Shown: one piece after another, positions 9,583 to 64,000 of the stretch
How the letters are laid out: the number at the start of each line of letters is the position of its first letter
How positions within the stretch are numbered: position 1 is the first letter of the stretch
Source: Shinella sp. CPCC 101442
Lineage (GTDB): Bacteria > Pseudomonadota > Alphaproteobacteria > Rhizobiales > Rhizobiaceae
Assembly: GCF_024704725.1 (NCBI RefSeq)
Contig: NZ_JALIQS010000001.1
Span: 868,001-932,000 of the forward strand
Direction of reading: 5' to 3'
Length of the DNA stretch: 64,000 nt
Notes under the pieces: generated by a model
Databases searched by the model: none
Seen by the model: only the letters and a program-made list of their open reading frames with translations
What the model was told of the DNA's origin: nothing
Program-made: the position numbers and the translations under genes

Positions 9583-10716
9583 TCAGCCTTGCGCCGTCCG
9601 TTTCGTCTTCTTCGGATCGTCGAAGGTGATGGTGTGGGCGATGGCCGGCGCGTTGACGGTCTTGCCCTTCACTTCGAGCTTGGTGCCCTGCACGGCATAG
9701 GGAACCTCGACGCGCATGATCGCCATGGAGCGGTTGGTGAGCTTGGAATAGGATGGGCACGTGATGACGCCGACCTTCTTGTCGCCGGCCCAGACCTCGT
9801 CGCCGAGATCGGTCGGACCATCGGCCTCGACCAGCAGGCCGAAGATCTTGAAGCGCTCCTTGCCCTTGAGACGGGCATGTTCCTCGGCACCGCAGAAGCC
9901 GGTCTTGCCGGGGCTGACGGTGAAATCGAGGCCGAGCTCCCACAGGCTATCGCCGGGCTGCTCGTTGGCGAAGGGATACATCTGCGAATTGTCGTAGGGG
10001 TAGAACAGCAGGTAGCTTTCGACGCGCAGCATGTCGAGAACGCTGAAGCAGACGGGAATGATGCCCATCGCCTTGCCTTCGTCGACGATCCGGTCCCAGA
10101 CCATGCCGGCATCCTGGCCGCGCACGAAGATTTCATAGCCGCGCTCGCCGGTATAGCCGGTGCGCGAGATCATCACCGGTGCGCCGAACAAAGTCGTCTG
10201 CATGTGGTGGAAATATTTGAGGTCGCGGATGCCCGGCACGTATTTTTCGAGATAATCGACGGCGAGCGGCCCCTGGAGCGACAGGTCGTGCAGGTCGTCG
10301 TCGAACAGCACCGCGCAATTGCGGCCCTGTGCCTGCTTGACGATTTCCTCGAAGCCGGAACCCGAGCCGTGCACCAGCATCCAGGAATTGGGACCGGTGC
10401 GGTAGACGATGCAATCGTCGGTGAAATGGCCGCGCTCGTTAAGCATGCAGGCATAGACCGACTTGCCGGGATAGACCTTCGTCATGTCGCGGGTGGTGAT
10501 GTATTCCAGAATGGCAATCGCGTGTGGGCCGACGAGATGGACTTTTTTCAGGCCCGAGACATCCATGATGCCGGCCTTGGTGCGCACCGCGATGTGCTCT
10601 TCGTAGATGTCCTTGTCGTAGGTCCAGGCGGTTCCCATGCCGCTCCAGTCTTCGAGGTTCGATCCGAGTGCCCGATGCCTGTCTGCAAGGGCGGAAAAAC
10701 GCCAGCTAAGACTCAT
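9583..10716 (-). CDS. GcvT-type aminomethyltransferase linked to dimethylamine oxidation
   Basis: A 377-residue member of the glycine-cleavage T-protein/YgfZ fold family. Recognisable parts are the folate-site loop region DLSLQGPLAVDYLEKYVPGI, the family signature SRTGYTGERGYEIFV and the C-terminal barrel with ITCPSYSKL. No gcvH or gcvP accompanies it. It heads the dmm gene set, 10 bases before dmmA. By analogy with Tdm and MgdC, it may capture formaldehyde from dimethylamine demethylation as methylene-tetrahydrofolate. That is inference; it could also be an obligatory subunit of the oxygenase. A candidate promoter lies about 40 bases upstream. Confidence 0.82.
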   Translation of the reverse strand: MSLSWRFSALADRHRALGSNLEDWSGMGTAWTYDKDIYEEHIAVRTKAGIMDVSGLKKVHLVGPHAIAILEYITTRDMTKVYPGKSVYACMLNERGHFTDDCIVYRTGPNSWMLVHGSGSGFEEIVKQAQGRNCAVLFDDDLHDLSLQGPLAVDYLEKYVPGIRDLKYFHHMQTTLFGAPVMISRTGYTGERGYEIFVRGQDAGMVWDRIVDEGKAMGIIPVCFSVLDMLRVESYLLFYPYDNSQMYPFANEQPGDSLWELGLDFTVSPGKTGFCGAEEHARLKGKERFKIFGLLVEADGPTDLGDEVWAGDKKVGVITCPSYSKLTNRSMAIMRVEVPYAVQGTKLEVKGKTVNAPAIAHTITFDDPKKTKRTAQG

Positions 10717-10757
10717 ATTCTCGTTCCCATTTTCTTTTGCGGAATATTTATTTCCTG

Positions 10758-10785
10758 AGTATATCGCCGCTGCTCAAACTCGCAA
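10758..10785 (-). promoter_or_regulatory. Candidate internal promoter for the dmm-tmm gene set
   Basis: Minus-strand TTGCGA and TATACT with a 16-base spacer lie in the 110-base gap between folD and the GcvT-like gene, the longest gap in the series. The flanking sequence is AT-rich. The position would allow dmm and tmm to be expressed separately from mgs-gmaS-purU-folD. Seen by eye; no experimental support. Confidence 0.4.
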
Positions 10786-10826
10786 GAGTGTTAAAACTGG
10801 TATCTCCATTGTTCTTTGGCATCAGT

Positions 10827-11732
10827 CTAGAAACGCGGCGGCTCACGGCCAGACGCGCGGTAGGCGGCGATCACAGTGTTGGCCATCAGCATGGCGATGG
10901 TCATCGGCCCGACACCGCCCGGAACCGGGGTGATCGCACCGGCAACCTCTGAAACCTCGTCATAGGCGACATCGCCCACCAGACGGCTCCTGCCCTCGCC
11001 GCCCTCCGGCGCATCGATGCGGTTGATGCCGACGTCGATGACGGTGGCACCCGGCTTCACCCAATCGGCTTTCACCATGTCCGCACGGCCGACGGCGGCG
11101 ACGAGGATATCCGCGTGACGGCAGACGTCCGCCAGGTCCTTCGTGCGCGAATGCGCGATCGTCACCGTCGCATTGGCATGGAGCAGCAATTGCCCCATCG
11201 GTTTGCCGAAGAGGTTGGAGCGGCCGATGACGACGGCTGTCAGACCCGCCAGGTCCTCGCCATGGATGGAGCGGACGAGGCGCATGGCGCCCGCCGGCGT
11301 GCAGGAAATCAGGCCGGTTGCCAGATCGCCGGTCGCAAGCTTGCCGGCATTAACCACATGCAGGCCGTCGACGTCCTTCTCCGGCCTGATCGACTGGATG
11401 ATCGGCTCGGCGTCGAGGTGCTTCGGCAGGGGCAGTTGCACCAGGATGCCATGCACGGCGGGATCCGCGTTCAGCGACGCCACCAGGCTTGCGAGGTCCC
11501 CTTGCGTTGTCTCCTCCGGCAGCGTGTGCTGGGTGGAGTTGAAGCCACATTCCTTGGCCAGACGACCCTTGGCACCGACATAGGTGTGGCTTGCCGGATC
11601 ATCGCCAACGATGACGACCGAAAGTCCGGTCTTCACCCCGGTTTCCTCTTCAAGCGCCGAGGTCGCAGCCTTCACGGCCTCGGTCACCGACGCTGCAACT
11701 TTCTTCCCGTCAATGCGCGTCGCACTCCCCAT
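10827..11732 (-). CDS. folD: Methylene-tetrahydrofolate dehydrogenase/cyclohydrolase
   Basis: The 301-residue bifunctional enzyme oxidises 5,10-methylene-THF with NADP and hydrolyses methenyl-THF to 10-formyl-THF. It shows the catalytic-lysine region [13 protein letters not shown], the family motif [10 protein letters not shown] and the nucleotide-binding stretch [17 protein letters not shown]. The C-terminal block [16 protein letters not shown] is also present. It lies 3 bases after purU. In this locus it handles C1 units released by Tdm, Dmm and Mgd, and may be a second copy beside a housekeeping folD elsewhere. Confidence 0.96.
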
Positions 11733-11735
11733 GGT

Positions 11736-12620
11736 TCAACCCATACGCTCTGACGCGTAGCTGCCGGGGCTCGGCGGGAAGACGATCGTCTTGTTGCCGT
11801 TCATGAAGGTGCGGTGGTGGATGTGGGCGTGTACGGCGCGGGCGAGAACCTGGCTCTCCACGTCCCGGCCGATCGACACATAATCCTCCGCCGATTGCGC
11901 ATGCGTGATGCGCGCCACGTCCTGCTCGATGATCGGACCCTCGTCGAGATCCTCCGTCACATAGTGCGCCGTCGCCCCGATCAGCTTCACGCCGCGCTCG
12001 AAGGCCTGCTTGTACGGGTTGGCCCCCTTGAACGACGGCAGGAAGGAATGATGGATGTTGATGATCCGGCCCGACATCTTCTTGCACACCGCATCCGACA
12101 GAACCTGCATGTAGCGGGCGAGCACGATCAGTTCGGCGCCGGACTGTTCCACCACCTCCATCAGGCGCGCTTCGGCCTGCGGCTTGTTCTCCTTCGTCAC
12201 CTTGATGTGGTGGAAGGGGATGTCGTGGTTGACGATGACCTTCTGGTAGTCGAAGTGGTTCGACACGACGCCGACGATGTCGATCGGCAGCGCGCCGATC
12301 TTCCAGCGGTAGAGCAGGTCGTTCAGGCAATGACCGAAGCGCGACACCATCAGCAGCACCTTCATGCGCTCATCGCTGTCGTTGAAGCGGTGGGTCATCG
12401 CGAACTTTTTCGCGACCGGGGCGAAGCCGGCCTTGATGTCCTCCTCCGACACACCTTCCTGACTGAGAAAGGTGAGGCGCATGAAGAACAGGCCGGTTTC
12501 TAGGTCGTCGAACTGCGACGAATCCGAGATGTAACACCCCTTCTCGGCGAGGTAGCCGGTGATCGCGGCGACGATGCCGCGGGTCGATTGGCAGGATACG
12601 GTCAGGACGTGGCTTTTCAT
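11736..12620 (-). CDS. purU: Formyltetrahydrofolate deformylase
   Basis: Hydrolyses 10-formyl-THF to formate and THF, regenerating free folate. The 294-residue protein starts with an ACT regulatory domain (MKSHVLTVSCQSTRGIVAAI), followed by a formyltransferase-like catalytic domain with FHHIKV, a conserved HSFLPSFKG block and GATAHYV. The start at 12620 is selected because the ACT domain begins there and AAGAACC precedes it; an upstream ATG would add 40 unrelated residues. It lies 3 bases before folD. Methylotrophic alphaproteobacteria often use PurU to complete C1 oxidation, so this copy is likely catabolic. Confidence 0.95.
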   Translation of the reverse strand: MKSHVLTVSCQSTRGIVAAITGYLAEKGCYISDSSQFDDLETGLFFMRLTFLSQEGVSEEDIKAGFAPVAKKFAMTHRFNDSDERMKVLLMVSRFGHCLNDLLYRWKIGALPIDIVGVVSNHFDYQKVIVNHDIPFHHIKVTKENKPQAEARLMEVVEQSGAELIVLARYMQVLSDAVCKKMSGRIINIHHSFLPSFKGANPYKQAFERGVKLIGATAHYVTEDLDEGPIIEQDVARITHAQSAEDYVSIGRDVESQVLARAVHAHIHHRTFMNGNKTIVFPPSPGSYASERMG

Positions 12621-53227: not shown

Positions 53228-54052
53228 ATGTCGAAACCATTCACCAGTGCCATTCTGGCGCTCGGACTTGCCACCCTTGCGACTGCGGCCCAAGCCGGTG
53301 AAGTGCTTGATCGCGTGAAGCAGAAGGGAGAAGTCGTCAACGCCGTCGTCAACGACTATCCGCCCTTCGCCTATATCAACGACAACAACGAGCTCGACGG
53401 CTTCGACATCGACGTGGCCAAGGCGTTCGCCGAAAAGCTGGGCGTAAAGCTGAAGCTCGAAACGCCCGGCTGGGAAACGATTATCAGCGGCCGATGGGCT
53501 GGCCGCTGGGACGTCGCGATCACCTCGTCCACCCCGACCGAGGAACGCGCGAAGGTCGTCAACTTCCCGGTGAACTACTACAGCGTCCCCGCGGTCCTCG
53601 TCGTGAACAAGGACGAGCAGACGATCAGGTCTGCCGCCGACCTGACCGGCAAGAAGGTCGGCGTCGGCACTGGCTCGTCCTACGAGGCCTATGTCAACAA
53701 GAGCTTCACGATCCCGGGACAGGCGGCGATTTCCTTCCCGTTCGGTGCCGTGCAGTCGGTGCCGAATGACGAGACGGTCAACTTCCAGAACCTTGCGCTC
53801 GGAGCAGGCGTGCGCCTTGACGCCATTGTCGCCTCGCTCGGCACGGCGCAGGGGCAGATCGATGCGACGGGCAAGCTGAAGCTCGCAGGCGAGCCGCTCT
53901 TTGCCGAGCCCAACGCCGTCGTCACCGACAAGGGCGATCCGGAATGGGATGCCGAGGTGAAGCGGGTGATCACCGAACTCAAGGATGACGGTACGCTCGA
54001 AAAGATTTCGCAGAAGTGGTTCAAGGTCGATATCACCCGATATGCATTCTGA
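53228..54052 (+). CDS. Polar amino acid ABC substrate-binding protein
   Basis: A 274-residue periplasmic protein with signal peptide MSKPFTSAILALGLATLATA (cleavage about AQA-GEV). The mature protein follows the SBP_bac_3 pattern: NDYPPFAYINDNNELDGFDI, ITSSTPTEERAKVVNFPVNY and GKKVGVGTGSSYEAYV. GGAGG precedes the ATG. Followed by one permease gene, then a homocysteine S-methyltransferase gene, so a sulfur-containing amino acid such as methionine, S-methylmethionine or cystine is a plausible ligand (inference). Confidence 0.9.
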   Translation: MSKPFTSAILALGLATLATAAQAGEVLDRVKQKGEVVNAVVNDYPPFAYINDNNELDGFDIDVAKAFAEKLGVKLKLETPGWETIISGRWAGRWDVAITSSTPTEERAKVVNFPVNYYSVPAVLVVNKDEQTIRSAADLTGKKVGVGTGSSYEAYVNKSFTIPGQAAISFPFGAVQSVPNDETVNFQNLALGAGVRLDAIVASLGTAQGQIDATGKLKLAGEPLFAEPNAVVTDKGDPEWDAEVKRVITELKDDGTLEKISQKWFKVDITRYAF

Positions 54053-54902
54053 CGTCGGTCTTCCCGCCTTGCGGACATCAACCGGTGCCCGGCCACGGTT
54101 CTCCGTGACCGGGCCCGCCGGCTTTCGGCTGCGCGTTCAGCTGACGTGGCTGGCCTTGTCGATGCTGCTTTTCTGGCTCTTCTACAATCTCGGGCTGGAT
54201 TTCGGCCTGATCGGGCAGAAACTGCCTTTCATGCTGGGCCTGCGCCTCTCGCCCGACGGCTTCATCCAGGGCGTTGCGCTTACCTTGCTGATCACGGTCG
54301 CTTCCATGGCCATCTCGCTTGTGGTGGCGATCCTGACGGCGCTCGGCCGCCTGTCCTCCAATGCGCTGGCCTTCGGCGTCGCCACCTTCTACGCGTCCTT
54401 CTTCCGGGGCACACCGCTGCTGGTGCAGGTGTTGATCATCTATCTCGCGCTGCCGCAATTCGGCGTGGTGCTGTCGGGGCTTGCCTCCGGCATTGTCGCG
54501 CTCTCGCTGAACTACGGCGCCTATCTCGCCGAGACGATCCGTGCCGGCATTCTGTCCGTACCACGCGGACAGGGGGAGGCGGCGGTGGCGCTTGGGCTCG
54601 GGCGCGGCGTCATCGCCTTGAAGATCATCGCGCCGCAGGCGATGCGCATCATCATTCCCCCGGCCGGCGGCCACTTCATCTCGATGCTGAAGGATTCCTC
54701 CCTCGTGTCGATCATGGGGCTCTGGGAACTGAATTTTCTGGCGCAGTCCTACGGCCGCGCCACCTATCACTACATGGAAATGCTGCTCACGGCGGCAGCG
54801 ATCTACTGGTTTCTGTCGATCGGCCTCGAGCTGGTGCAGAACCGCCTGGAACGGCATTTCGGTCGCGCATTCGCCGGCGATCGGCAAGGAGGAACAAGAT
54901 GA
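54042..54902 (+). CDS. Polar amino acid ABC transporter permease
   Basis: A 286-residue HisM-type permease with a hydrophobic helix near 40-60, a conserved FRGTPLLVQVLIIYLALPQ segment, the EAA loop GQGEAAVALGLGRGVIALKI and APQAMRIIIPPAGGHFI. Its start overlaps the binding-protein gene by 11 bases. It is followed within 4 bases by the methyltransferase gene. No ATPase gene accompanies this pair. Confidence 0.9.
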   Translation: MHSDVGLPALRTSTGARPRFSVTGPAGFRLRVQLTWLALSMLLFWLFYNLGLDFGLIGQKLPFMLGLRLSPDGFIQGVALTLLITVASMAISLVVAILTALGRLSSNALAFGVATFYASFFRGTPLLVQVLIIYLALPQFGVVLSGLASGIVALSLNYGAYLAETIRAGILSVPRGQGEAAVALGLGRGVIALKIIAPQAMRIIIPPAGGHFISMLKDSSLVSIMGLWELNFLAQSYGRATYHYMEMLLTAAAIYWFLSIGLELVQNRLERHFGRAFAGDRQGGTR

Positions 54903-55822
54903 CCACGAACCAACCGTCCTTCACCATTCTCGATGGCGGCATGGGACGCCTCCTCGAGCGGCTCGGCGCACCCTTCCGCCTGCCGGAATGGTCGGCGCTC
55001 TCACTGATCGAGGCGCCGGATTACGTTACGCGGGCGCATCAGGCCTATGTCGATAGCGGCGCTGACATCATCACGACCAATTCCTACGGCCTCGTGCCGC
55101 ATATGCTGGGCGAAGAGCGTTTTGCCGCGGCGGGGCGGGCGCTTGCCGACCGTGCGGGCCGTCTAGCGCGCGCCGTTGCGGATGGCGCCGGCCGGCGGGT
55201 TCTGGTTGCCGGATCGCTCCCGCCGCCGTTCGAGAGCTACCGGCCGGAGCGCTTCCACGCCGACGGTGCGCCGCGCATCGTCGAAAGTCTCGTTGGCGGG
55301 TTGTGGCCCCATGTCGATCTGTGGCTGATCGAGACCCAGAGTTCGACCGTCGAGGCTCTGACTGCACTGTCGGCGGTGATCGGCGACGGCAAGCCGGCCT
55401 ATGTTTCCTATACGCTGAAAGACGAGGACGGGCGCACGGGACCGGCGGAGCTGCGTTCGGGCGAACCGGTCGAGGAGGCCGTGCGCAAAACGCTCGCCGC
55501 GGGCGCAAGCGGGATCTTCTTCAATTGCAGCCAGCCGGAAGTGATGGGCGCGGCCGTGCGTGCCGCGCGCCGGGCGGCGGATGAAACGGGTGCCTCCGCC
55601 GCCATCGGCGTCTATGCCAATGCCTTCGCGCCGGAGCCGCCCTCCGATACGCCCTATGCCGGCATTTCCGACATTCGCGCCGATCTCGACCCGGAAAACT
55701 ACCTGAAATGGATCGAGCGCTGGCTTCGCGATGGCGCGTCCGTCGTTGGCGGCTGCTGCGGCATCGGGCCGGAACATATCGATGCGATCCGCACATTCCG
55801 GAAGGTACGGGAAGCGGCTTGA
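54899..55822 (+). CDS. Homocysteine S-methyltransferase family protein
   Basis: A 307-residue barrel enzyme with the zinc cysteines of the family: FFNCSQPEVMG near residue 210 and VVGGCCGIGPEHIDAI near 285. The N-terminus has FTILDGGMGRLLERLG and GADIITTNSYG. It transfers a methyl group from S-methylmethionine or a related donor to homocysteine (or an analogue). Its start overlaps the permease stop (ATGA). The coupling to an amino-acid importer suggests salvage of methylated sulfur amino acids. Confidence 0.9.
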   Translation: MTTNQPSFTILDGGMGRLLERLGAPFRLPEWSALSLIEAPDYVTRAHQAYVDSGADIITTNSYGLVPHMLGEERFAAAGRALADRAGRLARAVADGAGRRVLVAGSLPPPFESYRPERFHADGAPRIVESLVGGLWPHVDLWLIETQSSTVEALTALSAVIGDGKPAYVSYTLKDEDGRTGPAELRSGEPVEEAVRKTLAAGASGIFFNCSQPEVMGAAVRAARRAADETGASAAIGVYANAFAPEPPSDTPYAGISDIRADLDPENYLKWIERWLRDGASVVGGCCGIGPEHIDAIRTFRKVREAA

Positions 55823-55923
55823 ATGTTTCGGCGGTGGCCGGACGAGGTGCAGGCGGCGAGAATAGGAGAAAAAACTACGCGGCCCGGTGAAAGTTGGAAT
55901 GGGCGTCCTCGCCGATGGTTAAA

Positions 55924-55953
55924 TTCTATAGATTATGTAGTCTTTAGAGAATA
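55924..55953. promoter_or_regulatory. Near-palindromic element upstream of ssuA
   Basis: ATTCTATAGA, ten bases, TTTAGAGAAT: arms match at 8 of 10 positions as an inverted repeat, 17 bases before the ssuA start. It resembles a LysR-type (CysB/Cbl-like) site. Related nonamers lie before the amino-acid ABC unit and the FAD protein gene. Confidence 0.45.
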
Positions 55954-55970
55954 TCTCGAAGGGGAACGCC

Positions 55971-56924
55971 ATGACAATGACACGCCGCATTTTCTCCGCC
56001 GCTCTTGCCGCCTCGATCGCGCTGCCGCTTCTGGGTGGCGGTGTCGCCTGGGCTTCCGACAAGGTCGTCCGTATCGGCTACCAGAAATACGGCACGCTCG
56101 TGCTGCTCAAGGGCAAAGGATTGCTCGAAGAGAAGCTGGAGAAGATCGGTTACACCGTGACGTGGACCGAGTTTCCGGCGGGTCCGCAGCTGCTCGAAGC
56201 ACTCAATGTCGGCGCCGTCGATTTCGGCACGACGGGCGAGACGCCGCCGATCTTCGCACAGGCTGCCGGTGCGCCGCTGATCTACATCGCGCATGAGCCG
56301 CCGGCGGCGCGCGGCGAGGCGATCCTCGTGCCCAAGGATAGCCCGATCAAGACCGTTGCCGACCTCAAGGGCAAGACCGTCGCGCTCAACAAGGGCTCGA
56401 ACGTGCATTTCCTGCTGGTGAAGGCGCTGGAGGAAGCCGGCCTCAAATATACCGACATCAAGACGACCTTCCTCCCGCCGGCCGACGGCCGCGCCGCCTT
56501 CGAACAGGGCGCCGTCGATGCCTGGGTCATCTGGGATCCCTTCCAGGCGGCCGCGGAAGTCGCGATCGAGGCGCGCGAGCTGCGGAACGGCGAGGGCATC
56601 GTTCCGAACCATCAGTTCTATCTCGGCGCCAAGCCCTTCGTGGAAGCCAATTCCGAAGCGGTGGATGTCGTGATCGAAGCCGTTGCGGAAATCGACGAAT
56701 GGGCAAAGGCCAACACCGCGGCCGCGGCTGCCGAGCTTGCACCTTCCGTCGGCATTCCGGCTGATGTGTTGACCGTTGCGCTGGAGCGGCAGTCCTATGG
56801 CGTGAAAGCCATCGATGACAGCGTGGTCAAGCAACAGCAGGCCATTGCCGATACCTTCTTCGACCTCGGCCTGATCCCCGAAAAGATCTCGATTGCGGAC
56901 GTCGTACGCAAGGGCGGTGCCTGA
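55971..56924 (+). CDS. ssuA: Aliphatic sulfonate ABC substrate-binding protein
   Basis: A 317-residue periplasmic protein. Signal peptide ends near WAS-DKV; the mature protein has IGYQKYGTLVLLKGKG, TEFPAGPQLLEALNVGAVDFG, TGETPPIFAQAAGA, VALNKGSNVHFLLVKALEEA and VIWDPFQAAAE. The stretches match the well-known SsuA pattern very closely. RBS AGGGGAACGCC precedes the ATG. First gene of ssuACB; the monooxygenase gene ssuD is absent here. Confidence 0.95.
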   Translation: MTMTRRIFSAALAASIALPLLGGGVAWASDKVVRIGYQKYGTLVLLKGKGLLEEKLEKIGYTVTWTEFPAGPQLLEALNVGAVDFGTTGETPPIFAQAAGAPLIYIAHEPPAARGEAILVPKDSPIKTVADLKGKTVALNKGSNVHFLLVKALEEAGLKYTDIKTTFLPPADGRAAFEQGAVDAWVIWDPFQAAAEVAIEARELRNGEGIVPNHQFYLGAKPFVEANSEAVDVVIEAVAEIDEWAKANTAAAAAELAPSVGIPADVLTVALERQSYGVKAIDDSVVKQQQAIADTFFDLGLIPEKISIADVVRKGGA

Positions 56925-57763
56925 TGGCGGAAACGTCGGTGGCCGGCGGCTACGCTGCCGGTGAAAGCCGCAAACTCAACCTGAAGGGCCTGGGGAGCGC
57001 GCTCGCCCCCTGGACTCTTCCCATCGCGCTCCTCCTCCTCTGGGAAATCGCGTCGCAGACCGGCCTCGTCAACGCCCGTCTCATGCCGGCGCCGACGAAG
57101 ATCGCCGCAACCTTCTGGCGGTTGCTGCTGGATGGATCGCTGTTCTTTCACACGCTCGCCTCCACGCAGCGCGCCGTGATCGGGCTCGTCATCGGCGGCG
57201 GGCTCGGTTTTGTCGCGGGCGTTCTCACGGGGCTCTGGAAGCCGGCGGAAACACTGCTCGACAGCACCTTGCAGATGGTGCGCAACATTCCACATCTGGC
57301 ATTGATTCCGCTCGTCATTCTCTGGTTTGGAATCGACGAGACGGCCAAGATCTTCCTTGTTTCCATCGGCGTCTTCTTCCCGATCTACATCAACACCTTC
57401 TACGGCGTTCGTACCATCGATCCGCAGCTCGTCGAGATGGCGTCGGTCTACGGGCTCGACCGCAAGGCGCTGGTCCAGCGCATCATCCTGCCCGGCGCAC
57501 TGCCGTCTATCCTCGTCGGCCTGCGCTATGCGCTCGGCTTCATGTGGCTCACGCTCATCGTCGCCGAAACGATCTCGGCCACCAGCGGCATCGGCTACAT
57601 GACGATGAACGCGCGTGAATTCCTGCAGACCGATGTCGTGCTTCTCGGCATCATCGTCTATGCGCTTCTCGGCAAGCTTGCCGACGTGGCGACCCGGGCG
57701 ATCGAAAAGCGCGTGCTCGTCTGGCATCCCGCCTATCAGGTGAAGCCGGGGAGCATAAAATGA
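56924..57763 (+). CDS. ssuC: Aliphatic sulfonate ABC permease
   Basis: A 279-residue inner-membrane permease of the nitrate/sulfonate class with about six helices. Conserved segments: WEIASQTGLVNARLMPAPTK, HTLASTQRAVIGLVIGGGLG, the ATPase-docking loop VEMASVYGLDRKALVQRI and the SATSGIGYMTMNAREF-like TISATSGIGYMTMN block. It overlaps ssuA by one base and ssuB by 4 bases. Confidence 0.93.
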   Translation: MAETSVAGGYAAGESRKLNLKGLGSALAPWTLPIALLLLWEIASQTGLVNARLMPAPTKIAATFWRLLLDGSLFFHTLASTQRAVIGLVIGGGLGFVAGVLTGLWKPAETLLDSTLQMVRNIPHLALIPLVILWFGIDETAKIFLVSIGVFFPIYINTFYGVRTIDPQLVEMASVYGLDRKALVQRIILPGALPSILVGLRYALGFMWLTLIVAETISATSGIGYMTMNAREFLQTDVVLLGIIVYALLGKLADVATRAIEKRVLVWHPAYQVKPGSIK

Positions 57764-58503
57764 GTGCTGCCGACTTCTATGTGCCGGAAAGCGCCGGTGG
57801 CCTGCCGATCAGCCTTTCGCGGGTCGAAAAATCCTTTGGCGCGCTCAATGTGCTCGGCAACTTCAACCTCGACATCCCGGCGGGCCAGTTCCTGGCCGTC
57901 GTCGGCCGGTCGGGTGGGGGAAAGTCGACCCTGATGCGCCTTGTCGCCGGGCTCGATGCGGCCGACAGCGGCCGCGTCGGGATTGGAGGGCGCCAAGTCG
58001 AGCGCCTACATCCTTCCGTGCGCCTGCTTTTTCAGGAGGCACGGCTGGTGCCGTGGCAGCGGGTCATCGAAAATGTCGGCATTGCCCGCGGCCCGAACTG
58101 GCAGGAGACGGCGCGCCGAACACTGGCCGATGTCGGACTGGAGGGGCGTGAGAACGATTGGCCGAGCGTCCTGTCCGGCGGCCAGCGCCAGCGCGTTGCC
58201 CTGGCGCGGGCTCTGGTCAGCGAGCCGCAGATCCTGTTGCTCGACGAACCCTTCGGCGCGCTGGATGCGCTCACCCGTATCGAAATGCACCGGCTGCTCG
58301 AACGCATCTGGGCCGCGCGCGGCTTCACCACGGTGCTGATCACGCACGATGTTGCGGAAGCTGTCGCGCTGGCGGATCGCGTCGTTGTGTTGCGGGAAGG
58401 GGCTATCGCGCTGGACATAGAGATCGATCTGGACCGTCCGCGCCAGGAGCTTGCCGATCCGCGCGCCGTCGACCTCCAGCGCCGCATATTGGACGCGGTG
58501 TAG
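57760..58503 (+). CDS. ssuB: Aliphatic sulfonate ABC ATP-binding protein
   Basis: A 247-residue ATPase: Walker A VVGRSGGGKSTLMRLVAG (about 47-64), Q-loop in LLFQEARLVPWQRVIENVG, signature [15 protein letters not shown], Walker B ILLLDEPFGALDALTR, and H-loop ITHDVAEAVALADR. The EARLVPWQ segment is characteristic of SsuB. It completes the importer and ends 42 bases before a TIGR01244-type gene. Confidence 0.94.
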   Translation: MSAADFYVPESAGGLPISLSRVEKSFGALNVLGNFNLDIPAGQFLAVVGRSGGGKSTLMRLVAGLDAADSGRVGIGGRQVERLHPSVRLLFQEARLVPWQRVIENVGIARGPNWQETARRTLADVGLEGRENDWPSVLSGGQRQRVALARALVSEPQILLLDEPFGALDALTRIEMHRLLERIWAARGFTTVLITHDVAEAVALADRVVVLREGAIALDIEIDLDRPRQELADPRAVDLQRRILDAV

Positions 58504-60420: not shown

Positions 60421-61374
60421 TCAGCGCCCGGGATCCGCCTGGGCTGAGCCCTGTCCTTGGCGCCAACGCCGCACGTCTTCCTCGCTTGCCTTGCCGCCAC
60501 GGGGGCCGTGAATGGTGACGGAACGGGAGGCGGCGGCGACGGCGAAGTCGAGGGCGTCGGTGAAGGTCTGGTTGCGGGCAAGGCACCAGGTGAGCGCGCC
60601 GCCGAACGTGTCGCCGGCCCCGGTCACGTCGGCCACCTCGACCGGATAGCCGGCGACCCGCTGGTGTGTTTTGCCATCGAAAGCCTCCGCGCCGTCCGCC
60701 GCCAGCGTGCGCACCACCCGACCGATACCGTGGTCGCCGATCCAGTCGCCGATGCGGGCCATGTCGTCATGGCCGAAGGTGGCGCGAAAGCCGACCTGGT
60801 TGAAGATGACGACGGCCGCACCGGAGAGATAGGGCATATCCTCGGATGTGCAGCCGCCGACATCGAGATCGAATATGGCACGACGACCGTGCTGAAGCAG
60901 GTCGGCGAGCAGGTCGGCCTGCTTGAGTATGCCGTTCTGCGTTTGTGTATGCAGCCTGCGAACACGATAGAGCGTCGTGTAAAGGAAACCGGGCTGGCGC
61001 AAGGCGGCAAGCGTTTCGGGCGCCAGCCACATCGGCTGCTCGCCCATTTCGACCGTGAGCACCACATGTTCGCCATCGATCAGGAAGATCAGGTTGCGCG
61101 ATTCCGCGATGGTGGCGTCGGTCAGCATATGGTCGACGCCGACACAGTTCTGCCGGAGATCGTCGACGAGCCGCTGCGACAAAGGGCTGTCGTTCAGCAA
61201 GGAGATGAACTGCGTGTCGCCGCCCAGCGTCGCATGCACGACGGCCGCGTTGGCAATGGAACCGCCGATCTCGGCGGGCAATTCCCGGACCATGCCCTTG
61301 TCGGCGCGGCCAGGCCAGCGGTCCGCGGTGTAGTATTCGTCGAGCGCGACGTCGCCGATGAAGAAGGCGGTCAT
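60421..61374 (-). CDS. PfkB-family carbohydrate kinase
   Basis: A 317-residue ribokinase-like enzyme with the N-terminal substrate region RELPAEIGGSIANAAVVHAT and the C-terminal PfkB signature DVTGAGDTFGGALTWCLA holding the catalytic aspartate. The FDLDVGG segment is part of the lid side. It overlaps the upstream cupin gene by 4 bases in a GntR-controlled unit. Substrate is unknown; pentose, nucleoside or sugar-acid phosphorylation is likely. Confidence 0.92.
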   Translation of the reverse strand: MTAFFIGDVALDEYYTADRWPGRADKGMVRELPAEIGGSIANAAVVHATLGGDTQFISLLNDSPLSQRLVDDLRQNCVGVDHMLTDATIAESRNLIFLIDGEHVVLTVEMGEQPMWLAPETLAALRQPGFLYTTLYRVRRLHTQTQNGILKQADLLADLLQHGRRAIFDLDVGGCTSEDMPYLSGAAVVIFNQVGFRATFGHDDMARIGDWIGDHGIGRVVRTLAADGAEAFDGKTHQRVAGYPVEVADVTGAGDTFGGALTWCLARNQTFTDALDFAVAAASRSVTIHGPRGGKASEEDVRRWRQGQGSAQADPGR

Positions 61375-61880
61375 GCCGAAGGTCCATCAGTCGTCCGGAC
61401 CTGGCGTGGCCCGCCGGCGACCGGAATCCAGGGGCTTTCACCGAGGCCGCAGATTGCCATCCAGTAGTACGCCGCCGGGCGGGTCGCGCCCCGGCAGGCA
61501 TCGTGCCAGACATTGCGATGCATCACCACCGCCTGGCCCGGCGCGATGACGAAGGCTTCGATCTCGTCGCGATGCGGCGCGTCGGCGGTCGAGGCAGGGG
61601 CCACGGCGAGGACGACCGGCTCGGCGGCGCAGAAGATCGCTTCTTCGGTCTGCGGATGCCGTTCCATGGCCGTGCAGGACCACGGCGCGCTTCCGCCGCG
61701 AGTCATGCCGAGATGGCCCGAACCGTCGATCAGCGGCGTACGGGTAAAGCCGTCCTGCCATCCGTCGCCGTTCGTGCGGATCACATCGCGATCGGTATCC
61801 CCGGCAAGATCGTAGACCTTGCCGTAACGGGCAAAATTCCCGGCCGCCACAGGCCGGGCAACGATGGCGTCGGCGCTCAT
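61371..61880 (-). CDS. Ureidoglycolate lyase-like (AllA family) cupin protein
   Basis: A 169-residue cupin. Relevant stretches are CTAMERHPQTEEAIFCAAEP, VVLAVAPASTADA, IEAFVIAPGQAVVMHRNVWH and a terminal DACRGATRPAAYYW. These match the AllA pattern of metal-binding histidine/glutamate/histidine and GxxVxxxxxxWH. Start at 61880 overlaps the BtpA-type gene by 4 bases. No other allantoin genes are near, so the true substrate is probably not ureidoglycolate. Confidence 0.8.
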   Translation of the reverse strand: MSADAIVARPVAAGNFARYGKVYDLAGDTDRDVIRTNGDGWQDGFTRTPLIDGSGHLGMTRGGSAPWSCTAMERHPQTEEAIFCAAEPVVLAVAPASTADAPHRDEIEAFVIAPGQAVVMHRNVWHDACRGATRPAAYYWMAICGLGESPWIPVAGGPRQVRTTDGPSA

Positions 61881-62617
61881 GCGGCGCTCCTGAGGGCGCG
61901 GACCGCGCGCATCAGGCGAGCGACGTGGGTGGCCTCGACACGCCCGGTATCCTTGTGGTCGTGCTTGAACCAGCTTCCGACGATCGCACCGTCGGCATGG
62001 GCGAGGTGCTCGGCAGCGTTCGCTTCGGTGAGGCCGGCGCCGACAAGCAGCGGCACTGTGCCGCCGGTGGCGGCGCGGAAGCGTGCCACTTTGTCCATGT
62101 CCGTCGGCTGGCCGGTGGCATCCGAGGTCACCACGAGGCCATCGCAGCGCGCGGCACCCAGCCGCACATCCTCTTCTTCCGGTCGCCCGGAAAGGACCGG
62201 TTGATACTTGAACCGCACGCCGCCGAGCAGCAGCGATGGAACGCTCGCCCGCCGGGCGGCAAAATTCGCCGCGAAGACGGCATCGTCCTCCGGCGGCAGG
62301 TGGCCGGCGACGGAATCGACCTGAATGAAGGAAACCGGATAGCGTTTGGCGAGCGTAAAGGCGCGCGGATCGTCGCGCAGCACATTGACGCCGATCTTCG
62401 CGCCGAGATCGAGGCTGCACAGCCGGTCGAGGACACGCTCGACGTCATCGGCATCGCCGAAATAGTTTTCCACCACCAGCCCGTCGACGCCTTCGCCGGC
62501 CATGATGCGGGCTTCCTCCTCGGCCTGAGCGAGTTTCGCGGCGGGACCTTCGCCGGCAAGATGCAGCATGCCGAGAATGGGTTTCACGGTGTTGAAGGTC
62601 TCACTGAGACGGTTCAT
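61877..62617 (-). CDS. BtpA/SgcQ-family TIM-barrel protein
   Basis: A 246-residue protein with the family's features: ILGMLHLAGEGPAAKLAQAEEEAR at the start, GVDGLVVENYFGDADD, SFIQVDSVAGHLPPEDD and a final ADGAIVGSWFKHDHKDTGRV. The family includes SgcQ of sugar clusters and BtpA of photosystem I biogenesis, and its catalytic role is poorly known. Here it is grouped with a kinase and a cupin under GntR control, pointing to a sugar or riboside pathway. Confidence 0.85.
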   Translation of the reverse strand: MNRLSETFNTVKPILGMLHLAGEGPAAKLAQAEEEARIMAGEGVDGLVVENYFGDADDVERVLDRLCSLDLGAKIGVNVLRDDPRAFTLAKRYPVSFIQVDSVAGHLPPEDDAVFAANFAARRASVPSLLLGGVRFKYQPVLSGRPEEEDVRLGAARCDGLVVTSDATGQPTDMDKVARFRAATGGTVPLLVGAGLTEANAAEHLAHADGAIVGSWFKHDHKDTGRVEATHVARLMRAVRALRSAA

Positions 62618-62643
62618 GTCGGTTCTCCTGCGTCGCGCCGCCC

Positions 62644-63420
62644 TCAGGCGGGCGCGGTATCGCGCCCCCAGCGCGTTGCGAATTTCATCTGGACGGCCGG
62701 CGAGTAGACGATCGACGTGCGCTCGACCAACCGGTCGTCCGCGTCGAGCACATCCCCGCTGGCGCAAAGGTAGCCAGGCACATGTGGTGCCGGGCCAAAG
62801 ACCTCCCGCAGGCGTTCGGACGGCGGCACGACAGTCAGCAGCAGTTCCGAGCGCAGGGGGTGGCGGTCATAGTCGCGGCGCAACACCTCGTAGAGCGATT
62901 GCGCCGCGAAATCGTTGGTCTCGATACCGGGATAGAGAGCCAGGTCGAGCTGGGACGTATCGACGTTCAGCCAGCTGACCGTTTCGTCATTGGCCAGCCC
63001 TCGGGCGCGGACGAGCAGCAGCTCGCCATTTTCCACCCGGTGTTCGAGCACCCGCGTGACGGGGCGCTGACCCTGCCGGCGGGCGAGTTCGGTAAAACTG
63101 CCGAAATTCCAGATATTGTGGCTGATCGGTCGATGCGAGACGATGGTGCCCCGGCCGCGTACCTGCTGGACCAAACCTTCCGACACCAGAAGCGCCATCG
63201 CGTTGCGCACGGTGGTGCGGGCGATGCCGAACTGGTCGCGCAACTGGTTTTCAGAGGGGATGGCCTCCCCCTCCGAGAAATCGCCGCTGAGAATAGCGGC
63301 ACGCAGCGCCCGGTAGAGCTGGCGATAGAGCTGCTCGCTCGAATAGGAATCGAGGCGAAAGCGCGACAGCCGGTCATCCGGGCTCGTGGTGTTGGCGTCT
63401 GGCGTGGAAGGCTGGGTCAA
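62644..63420 (-). CDS. GntR-family transcriptional regulator (HutC/UTRA type)
   Basis: A 258-residue regulator: a winged helix at about 25-95 (LYRALRAAILSGDFSEGEAI, PSENQLRDQFGIARTTVRNA) and a UTRA ligand domain at about 110-250 (VTRVLEHRVENGELLLVRAR, LRSELLLTVVPPSERLREVF). First in the run of genes it probably regulates: BtpA-type, AllA-type and PfkB. The 22-base gap to the solute-binding gene upstream suggests they share a transcript. Confidence 0.92.
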   Translation of the reverse strand: MTQPSTPDANTTSPDDRLSRFRLDSYSSEQLYRQLYRALRAAILSGDFSEGEAIPSENQLRDQFGIARTTVRNAMALLVSEGLVQQVRGRGTIVSHRPISHNIWNFGSFTELARRQGQRPVTRVLEHRVENGELLLVRARGLANDETVSWLNVDTSQLDLALYPGIETNDFAAQSLYEVLRRDYDRHPLRSELLLTVVPPSERLREVFGPAPHVPGYLCASGDVLDADDRLVERTSIVYSPAVQMKFATRWGRDTAPA

Positions 63421-63442
63421 GGCAGGCTCCGGCAGAGTTCCG

Positions 63443-64000
63443 TTACTTCGTGGTTCCGTTTATCTTGAACTCTTCCACGCCCGCCTCTTTCAAGCCGTAG
63501 CGGTCGAGGATCTGTGCATAAGTGCCATCCGCCTTCAGTGCGTCGAGCGTGGCGTGCACCGCGTCGCGCAGTTCTCCATTCGCCTTGGCGAAGGCGATGC
63601 CGTAGTGGTTGACGTCGCCGACCTCGCCGATCTGGTAGAACTTGCCCGGCTCCTGCTTCATCAGGTCGAGCAGGCCTTCCAGGCCGATGACCGACGCCTG
63701 GGCGCGGCCCTGGCGGATTTGCATGATGTGCTCGGCCTGGGTCGGGATCTGGATGACGGTGATCAGCTTGTCGGCCGGGCAAATGGACTTGCCGAGCTCT
63801 TCTGCCCAGGTGACCCAGCTCGTGCCGGTCGCCACGGCGACGGTCTTGCCGCAGAGATCGGCTTCGGTCTTGATCTCGGCCTGATGGTCGACGCTCGAAT
63901 AGAAGACGTTGCCCGTCTTGAAGTAGTCGATGAAATCGAGCTGTGTCTGGCGCTCGACCTTGTCGGAGAAGGCCGTGATGATCATGTCCGACCGGCCCGT
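63443..64000 (-). CDS. Polar amino-acid-type ABC substrate-binding protein (5' end outside window)
   Basis: The frame runs from a stop at 63443 to the window edge without a start. It reads as the C-terminal two thirds of an SBP_bac_3 binding protein: SDMIITAFSDKVERQTQLDF, EADLCGKTVAVATGTSWVTW, HIMQIRQGRAQASVIG, and LKADGTYAQILDRYGLKEAG. It precedes the GntR gene on the same strand, so transport and the kinase/BtpA unit may form one operon. Any permease and ATPase lie outside the window. Confidence 0.9.
   Translation of the reverse strand, partial: TGRSDMIITAFSDKVERQTQLDFIDYFKTGNVFYSSVDHQAEIKTEADLCGKTVAVATGTSWVTWAEELGKSICPADKLITVIQIPTQAEHIMQIRQGRAQASVIGLEGLLDLMKQEPGKFYQIGEVGDVNHYGIAFAKANGELRDAVHATLDALKADGTYAQILDRYGLKEAGVEEFKINGTTK

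Follow-up and report, generated by a model that had tools for sequence, protein, structure and literature searches.

What compound is consumed, and by which chemistry, when a PfkB-family kinase, an AllA-like cupin and a BtpA/SgcQ-family protein are encoded together with an importer of the amino-acid class? The question is raised by the end of a 64,000-nucleotide stretch of the Shinella sp. CPCC 101442 genome (contig NZ_JALIQS010000001.1; G000:C1:868001-932000 in the labels used here), referred to throughout as the window, in which positions 60421-64000 carry on the minus strand, in order of transcription, a solute-binding protein (SBP) gene cut by the window end and the genes for a GntR/UTRA regulator, the BtpA/SgcQ protein (hereafter BtpA), the cupin and PfkB. 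Recovery of the flanking sequence completes the SBP gene and adds an ATPase and one permease, which makes a full importer of the polar-amino-acid type (PAAT), and no known route is recognized in the flanking genes; a single strand holds all seven genes (permease, ATPase, SBP, GntR, BtpA, cupin, PfkB). Labels beginning with G denote genomes, G000 being the own genome, and those beginning with L denote fetched locus stretches; a coordinate in L002, which contains the present locus, equals the window coordinate minus 58000. An operon of importer, kinase, regulator and a further enzyme is of an ordinary type, whereas the enzyme pair after the kinase is an unassigned one. On balance it is probable that the compound is phosphorylated by the kinase and that BtpA then acts on the phosphate. 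Within this scheme, the most likely substrate class would be N-linked sugar compounds, fructosamine-like or other, and BtpA would hold the place taken by the deglycase FrlB in the frl operon.

A Gene Set That Recurs as a Unit

The original prediction named a lack of conservation of the trio of BtpA, cupin and PfkB in other genomes as one ground for refutation; the trio is conserved, and its grouping is not due to chance. Among 297 genomes of the family, the own genome included (BtpA at E<=1e-40, cupin at E<=1e-20, PfkB at E<=1e-50), BtpA occurs in 15, the cupin in those 15, and PfkB in those 15 and as a 127-aa fragment in a 16th; by their coordinates the three genes are adjacent in 15/15 carriers, which belong to 8 of 109 genera. 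The fragment (G422:C6:277235-277615, 83% identical), in a genome from which the other two genes are absent, looks like a remnant of the module. Across an order-wide set of 199 genomes all three genes are found at high scores in two, one of them the own genome; five others have a cupin-like match (at best E 4.7e-11, 40% identity), 15 others a BtpA-like match (at best E 4.9e-15), and none of the others a kinase match at 1e-40. The module appears nearly all-or-nothing and patchy in its distribution, a pattern that fits transfer or loss as a unit.

In a species-genome collection 232 relatives of BtpA were confirmed; the best 80 of them were taken as BtpA loci, with genes called within 7 kb by six-frame profile searches at fixed thresholds. 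PfkB is present in 64 of these 80 loci and the cupin in 50, always with PfkB, so that the trio stands in 50; the full seven-gene set is found in 39. Some short contigs, L028 among them, break off ahead of the permease gene, and a partial cupin match in L069 (81 bits, under the 150-bit threshold) was counted as a locus without cupin. Other partners are an energy-coupling factor (ECF) importer in 13 loci, a mannose-type phosphotransferase system (PTS) in 10, a small M24 protein in 11, never alongside the cupin, a xylose-isomerase-like protein in five and an ADI/DDAH-like protein in three.

Probable Phosphorylation and a Proposed Action of BtpA

The kinase (60421..61374, minus strand; PF00294, 102.6 bits) represents a distinct PfkB subfamily marked by an N-terminal GDVALDEYY and a C-terminal VTGAGDT motif. 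Its best NCBIfam match is ribokinase (82.2 bits, cut-off 299.65), it scores 47.1 bits with the fructoselysine 6-kinase model (cut-off 247), and D12, N42 and A253-G254-D255 are invariant in an alignment with E. coli RbsK and FrlD. Phosphorylation of the imported compound is its most likely activity. The distribution of the kinase across modes of uptake tells what type of compound BtpA should act on: PfkB lies within 7 kb in 64 of the 70 non-PTS loci and in none of the ten mannose-type PTS loci, which also have no cupin. Elsewhere in the ten PTS genomes the subfamily is found once (37% identity), the best match in the others being 28% identical (E 2.3e-19). E. coli sgcQ is part of a PTS operon without a kinase, and distant BtpA genes adjoin PfkB-type kinase genes in Shinella and Rhizobium plasmids and in Haloferax. 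The kinase accompanies ATP-binding cassette (ABC) and ECF importers and is absent with the PTS. On the simplest reading, the substrate of BtpA would be a phosphorylated compound, which PfkB makes once an ABC or ECF importer has brought the precursor in, and which the PTS makes in the course of transport.

BtpA itself (61877..62617, minus strand) belongs to the Pfam family PF03437 (76.3 bits against a gathering score of 30) and falls below the cut-off of the subfamily model TIGR00259 (70.1 against 153.4 bits). Its structural model, built from a 44-row alignment, has a mean pLDDT of 96.6, and Foldseek matches it mostly to phosphate-binding TIM barrels (TrpA, GGGPS, IGPS, ThiE, KDPGal aldolase, NanE). 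KDPGal/KDPG aldolases head the VIA-align comparison (Z 20.4, rmsd 2.5, 200 aligned residues, 14% identity), but many TIM barrels follow within a few Z units, and by either program the predicted fold does not single out one reaction. No solved relative is found by sequence, phmmer against the PDB giving only IMPDH at E 0.59. A GxG on strand 7 and an IVGS..K on strand 8 are conserved, motifs of a kind that serves in phosphate binding. H19, N78, Q99, G195 and K218 are invariant in 42 subfamily sequences, and in seven distant members G195 and K218 are kept in 7/7 and H19, N78 and R123 in 6/7; the loop after strand 1 is shorter than in these seven, none of which is cyanobacterial. Taken with the model, BtpA is a probable enzyme acting on a phosphorylated intermediate. 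That it is instead a non-enzymatic stabilizing partner or chaperone of the kinase, the cupin or the PTS is very improbable. Available parts of two publications speak for such a role and against a catalytic one, a cyanobacterial BtpA being reported to bind and stabilize GluTR in a review (PMC11449065) and SgcQ being given PTS chaperone-like features in a 2026 study (PMC13343008). Against such a role, BtpA has no constant partner, being found in PTS loci without kinase or cupin and in ABC or ECF loci without PTS; moreover, the His, Asn and Lys residues that should lie at the barrel mouth, judging by the modelled strands, are conserved, and distant BtpA proteins share several of them.

A Probably Accessory Cupin

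The cupin (61371..61880, minus strand) contains the PF04115 domain (47.3 bits, cut-off 23) and falls below every curated cut-off, the best ureidoglycolate-lyase equivalog scoring 52.6 bits against 260. Its model (mean pLDDT 94.4) is matched best by the AllA structures 2bdr (E 2e-9), 1xsr and 1yqc (E 1.2e-8), and after these by DUF4867 and sugar-nucleotide 3,5-epimerases (Foldseek). E73-R74-H75 (ERH) and W125-H126 (WH) are common to the cupin and E. coli AllA, and position 80 is Glu where E. coli AllA has Gln; H75, E80 and H126 would suit a metal site. The resemblance to AllA is a match of predicted fold, which does not imply AllA activity.

Twenty of the 30 genomes whose BtpA locus has no cupin were searched for a PF04115 protein, which is absent from 17 of them in what was a loose first look at draft genomes; of the remaining three, two have proteins with true-AllA-like scores (195 and 180 bits) and the third, G004, has a double cupin in L102. 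Because so many of these genomes are without PF04115, the cupin appears to have an accessory role. The same absence, together with the missed AllA cut-offs, led to rejection of the reading that the operon serves allantoin or ureidoglycolate breakdown.

A Possible Sugar-Amine Substrate

In the mechanism proposed here, the operon would be catabolic, substrate-induced and under a single operator. The PAAT-type ABC importer would take up an external compound with a sugar part and probably a carboxylate, and PfkB would phosphorylate the sugar part inside the cell. BtpA, as a phosphate-binding TIM barrel, would most likely split or rearrange the phosphorylated compound to give a central sugar phosphate and a leftover, with the cupin contributing an accessory step such as the opening of a carbinolamine or hemiaminal, or a sugar isomerization.

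The original prediction had pointed to a fructosamine-like substrate, and permeases resembling FrlA speak for that part of it. They are encoded in L059 (51% identity to E. coli FrlA) and L075 (55%); the L059 permease scores 541.7 bits with the FrlA model, short of the cut-off of 800, and 197.4 bits with the next best family. L075 also contains a single 646-aa frame (9989-11929) that joins BtpA with a xylose-isomerase-like protein, preceded by the permease and followed by a second type of PfkB. The fusion partner is 54% identical to a separate protein of L059 and takes its name from a relative in L048 (PF01261, 35.2 bits), Pfam seeing only BtpA in the L075 fusion itself. As a whole L075 looks like the frl layout with BtpA in place of FrlB. 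In the frl pathway, according to the available part of the source (PMC12632257), a kinase phosphorylates C-6 and a deglycase frees glucose 6-phosphate and an amine. With the frl locus excepted, the loci searched gave no tblastn match above 60 bits (E<=1e-8) to E. coli FrlB. The permeases favor the sugar-amine idea and do not prove it. A further proposal, possible though unlikely, is that phosphorylated N-linked sugars are split or rearranged by two unrelated enzyme classes, the SIS-fold fructosamine-6-phosphate deglycases and, as their TIM-barrel counterpart, the BtpA/SgcQ proteins. Just as tentatively, the latter class, kinase- or PTS-fed and with swappable importers, would extend over at least four bacterial phyla, the window operon being one member and E. 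coli sgcQ another.

The importer is a less certain guide. Family-3 SBP, permease and ATPase genes are adjacent, as in PAAT importers: the SBP gene (SBP_bac_3; 63443..64000, minus strand, PF00497, 45.7 bits) is complete at L002 5443-6315, and upstream of it, beyond the window and on the same strand, lie the ATPase gene (from L002 6337) and then the permease gene (L002 7098-8033). Aligned with GlnH, the SBP keeps Arg at position 75 and has Gly for Asp157 and Ser for Asp10. We take Arg75 of GlnH to be the carboxylate binder, and Asp157, for the alpha-amino group of the ligand, and Asp10 to be the acidic residues that hold a free amino acid. Of 11 related SBPs, eight likewise have Gly at position 157, that of L048 has Thr, and those of L051 and L056 have Asp. 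The pattern in the window SBP makes an ordinary free amino acid an unlikely ligand and would fit a carboxylate with a substituted nitrogen or a ligand without an amine. The amino-acid class of the importer, read in the original prediction as a pointer to the substrate, is a weak one, as these acids are lost and other loci use ECF, PTS, peptide-type and polyamine-type transporters.

Several observations weigh against the phosphorylation scheme or against its fructosamine-like version. By sequence the kinase has no clear leaning towards FrlD over ribokinase, being 24% identical to E. coli FrlD and 22% to RbsK. The Fisher p of 4.9e-9 for PfkB against PTS overstates independence, the 80 loci being related sequences; six non-PTS loci (L050, L055, L070, L075, L077 and L078) are without this PfkB, although L075 has one of a different type, and the genome of L066 combines a PTS locus with a PfkB and double cupin elsewhere. 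FrlA-like permeases are limited to two of the 80 loci, both in Firmicutes, and are not part of the window operon, and the loss from the window SBP of the two acids that should hold a free amino acid weakens the case for a simple zwitterionic sugar-amine. SIS-domain proteins 21-27% identical to FrlB (at most 80.6 bits) are encoded elsewhere in seven of seven genomes, the own genome and those of L059 and L075 included, which makes an unlinked deglycase elsewhere in the genome possible. One of these, G020:C4:605673-606476 in the genome of L075, may sit close to one end of L075, some 10 kb away from BtpA, provided that the contig is the same. No close relative has, to our knowledge, an assigned substrate or activity. 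Finally, sgc mutants showed no growth defect on panels of carbon sources in the part of the 2026 study available (PMC13343008).

Locus Variants

Several arrangements around BtpA depart from the seven-gene set. Among the 11 ECF loci without cupin, eight (L047, L053, L057, L076, L079 and L081-L083) have a small M24-only protein gene after BtpA, either directly or past a GATase1-like gene. This protein, which has no PDB relative at 1e-6, may replace the cupin in its role. A second variant places an ADI/DDAH-like hydrolase and a large M24 protein beside BtpA and PfkB (L043 6177-9940, L054 6415-9990, L049 11991-14750), with a polyamine-type binding protein, named by eye, also present in L043 and L054; these three loci hint at a guanidino compound. 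Matches to OppA occur in three loci, among them unrelated minus-strand genes, and stand in line with the operon in L071 only.

BtpA and PfkB also appear in other settings. In L084 (2572-11057) and L085 (2566-11039) a distant BtpA belongs to a rhizobial plasmid operon of another, unassigned pathway, together with an HTH-cupin regulator, a sugar ABC importer, a phosphotriesterase-like protein, a GATase1-like protein, PfkB and an M20 hydrolase. L102 (4268-11226), from a Lachnospiraceae genome (G004), has no BtpA and encodes a PfkB of the present subfamily with a 396-aa double AllA-like protein, in the neighborhood of nucleoside-phosphorylase-like proteins (by eye), a SIS protein, an ADP-ribosylglycohydrolase-like protein and an ABC importer of the sugar type; at another place G004 carries a BtpA locus of the PTS type. 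The SIS protein of L102 matches GlmS models (69 bits) and belongs to a different cluster.

Other Substrates

Two other substrates deserve weighing against a fructosamine-like compound. It is possible, though unlikely, that the compound is a plain unusual sugar or sugar acid, made into a ketose phosphate by PfkB and handled by BtpA as a phosphate-barrel aldolase or epimerase and by the cupin as an aldose-ketose isomerase or mutarotase. The aldolases at the head of the BtpA comparison would suit this, as would the epimerase matches of the cupin, the xylose-isomerase-like partners, one of them fused to BtpA, and the mannose-type PTS and an SBP without amine-binding acids, which suit a neutral or acidic sugar. 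KDPG aldolases carry their Lys on strand 6. BtpA has Thr there and a Lys (Lys137) only after strand 5, and the many TIM barrels of nearly equal score take force from the aldolase match itself. Likewise, the FrlA-like and PAAT transporters and, in single loci, those of peptide and polyamine type suggest that the substrate contains nitrogen. A printed working model, in the accessible portion of the 2026 study (PMC13343008), links E. coli sgc to unusual carbohydrates or pentitols; this leaning of its authors counts for a plain sugar and against a sugar-amine.

Rather unlikely is a nucleoside- or ureide-like N-glycoside, such as a ribosyl-urea or a damaged nucleoside, of which PfkB would make the 5-phosphate, BtpA or the cupin would cut the C-N bond, and the cupin would eliminate urea or an amide in the manner of AllA. 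The AllA fold and the shared ERH and WH motifs point this way, as do the 13 ECF importers, which have a CD3073-related S component (102 bits, cut-off 180); a C. difficile member of the CD3073 family (L094) adjoins a nucleoside hydrolase gene named by eye. The nucleoside-phosphorylase-like and ADP-ribosylglycohydrolase-like (DraG-like) neighbors of PfkB and the double AllA-like protein in L102, the joint occurrence of ADI/DDAH-like and M24 proteins in three of the 80 loci, and the distant BtpA operon with M20 peptidase-family and GATase1-like proteins are also consistent with an N-glycoside, and in the available text of the 2026 study sgc activity in E. coli rises with hypoxanthine in starvation (PMC13343008). 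Mannose-type PTS and FrlA-like permeases, however, fit sugars or sugar-amines better; neither gcl nor other allantoin genes were seen by eye near the window locus, and the absence of PF04115 from 17 of the 20 genomes makes elimination of urea by the cupin unlikely as a core step.

Regulation

That the operon is under GntR control, as the original prediction had it, is supported by a single, place-conserved site and stops short of proof, binding being something we infer. The regulator, of the GntR/HutC type (62644..63420, minus strand), combines a GntR DNA-binding domain (PF00392, 74.1 bits) with a UTRA ligand domain (PF07702, 31.6 bits). Directly before the permease frame, about 2 kb past the window end, lies a candidate operator, a 20-base inverted repeat of the form TTGTAGG-N6-CCTACAA (TTGTAGGGTTAGGCCTACAA on the plus strand of L002; L002 8034-8053 = G000:C1:934034-934053). 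A palindrome scan run under settings of its own returned no site in seven upstream regions, and the operator emerged from shared 12-mers of the same analysis. Allowing one mismatch, the 6.1-Mb genome has no other such site, and 26 further fetched loci hold it exactly. Of the 39 full seven-gene loci, 37 have it in the corresponding position at up to three mismatches, three Arthrobacter loci among them, the exceptions being L025, with four mismatches at the place, and L044, with none listed; weak matches were counted by their fixed place before the permease only, a place that has no control of its own. The position of the operator is kept from Rhizobiaceae to Arthrobacter. Anywhere in the 51 most distant loci, matches at three mismatches are at chance level (23 against 29 in a reversed control), and at two mismatches they number 11 against 2. 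The GntR protein probably binds this palindrome and acts as a repressor of the operon, and it would be released on binding the substrate or its phosphate.

Gene Order and Surroundings

The named genes are present, and the 4-base coupling of the three enzymes described in the original prediction is read directly from the sequence as two ATGA overlaps on the minus strand, one of the BtpA stop with the cupin start (61877..61880) and one of the cupin stop with the PfkB start (61371..61374). No promoter was found in a promoter scan, terminator-like sites are at chance level, and there is no Rfam match in L002 1-12000.

A LacI gene (L002 8334-9389) was considered as a member of the operon and rejected, since outside the own genome L005 alone has it next to the importer genes, the weak matches in L076 and L083 being different LacI proteins. 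Judged by eye, the gene runs divergently to an ABC operon of the MsmE/MalE type that includes a DhaK-like gene. Neighboring genes of the window, at 53228-58503 on the plus strand, seem by eye to encode another family-3 SBP with a permease, a protein resembling homocysteine S-methyltransferase and an importer like SsuABC.

Implications

BtpA/SgcQ proteins are widespread, even in E. coli K-12, and no demonstration of a catalytic activity was found in the openly licensed literature. That literature, on which the following also rests, yielded no paper joining BtpA/SgcQ, an AllA-like protein and PfkB in one pathway, which agrees with the statement of the original prediction that the first two had, to its knowledge, never been placed together in a defined pathway; nor did it yield a paper on the CD3073 S-component name or COG0434, or anything useful on fructosamines with ECF importers or rhizobia. 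One paper that names both BtpA and SgcQ mentions the family, in the part available, only among transferred genes (PMC11433714). The recurrence of the gene set in distant bacteria makes the role of BtpA/SgcQ testable, the single operator offers a reporter for an inducer screen, and leads to the substrate come from the fusion of BtpA and from the permeases resembling FrlA.

Comparison with Known Systems

The nearest parallel is the E. coli frl operon for fructoselysine and psicoselysine (frlABCD and frlR), with which the present locus shares uptake, a PfkB kinase and a GntR/UTRA regulator, and two related loci also share an FrlA-like permease and a xylose-isomerase-like protein; FrlC is a member of the xylose-isomerase-like superfamily. 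The loci differ in having BtpA and an AllA-like cupin and no FrlB-type deglycase, and the window operon in having a PAAT importer and a PfkB whose identity to FrlD is only about 24%. In E. coli, the sgc operon (sgcXBCQAER) likewise places a BtpA-family protein (SgcQ, 24% identical) beside a transporter and a regulator of its own, but it has a PTS, of the galactitol type, in place of the ABC importer and PfkB, no cupin, and an SgcE epimerase. Available parts of the literature describe sgc as a PTS for an unknown sugar, in a paper on SlyA (PMC5797941), and call its substrate, function and biochemistry unestablished, in the 2026 study (PMC13343008).

Single components find their counterparts in better-known settings. 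Like AllA, the cupin of the window has the cupin fold and the ERH and WH motifs, but it lies far under the curated cut-offs, has Glu80 for Gln, and neighbors a kinase and BtpA rather than allantoin genes. The importer resembles those of the GlnHPQ type in its family-3 SBP, one permease, one ATPase and the Arg for a carboxylate, and differs from them in the Gly and Ser of its SBP in place of Asp157 and Asp10. With cyanobacterial BtpA, a thylakoid and tetrapyrrole factor, the BtpA of the window shares the Pfam family PF03437, whereas it falls under the TIGR00259 cut-off and stands in the context of a catabolic operon.

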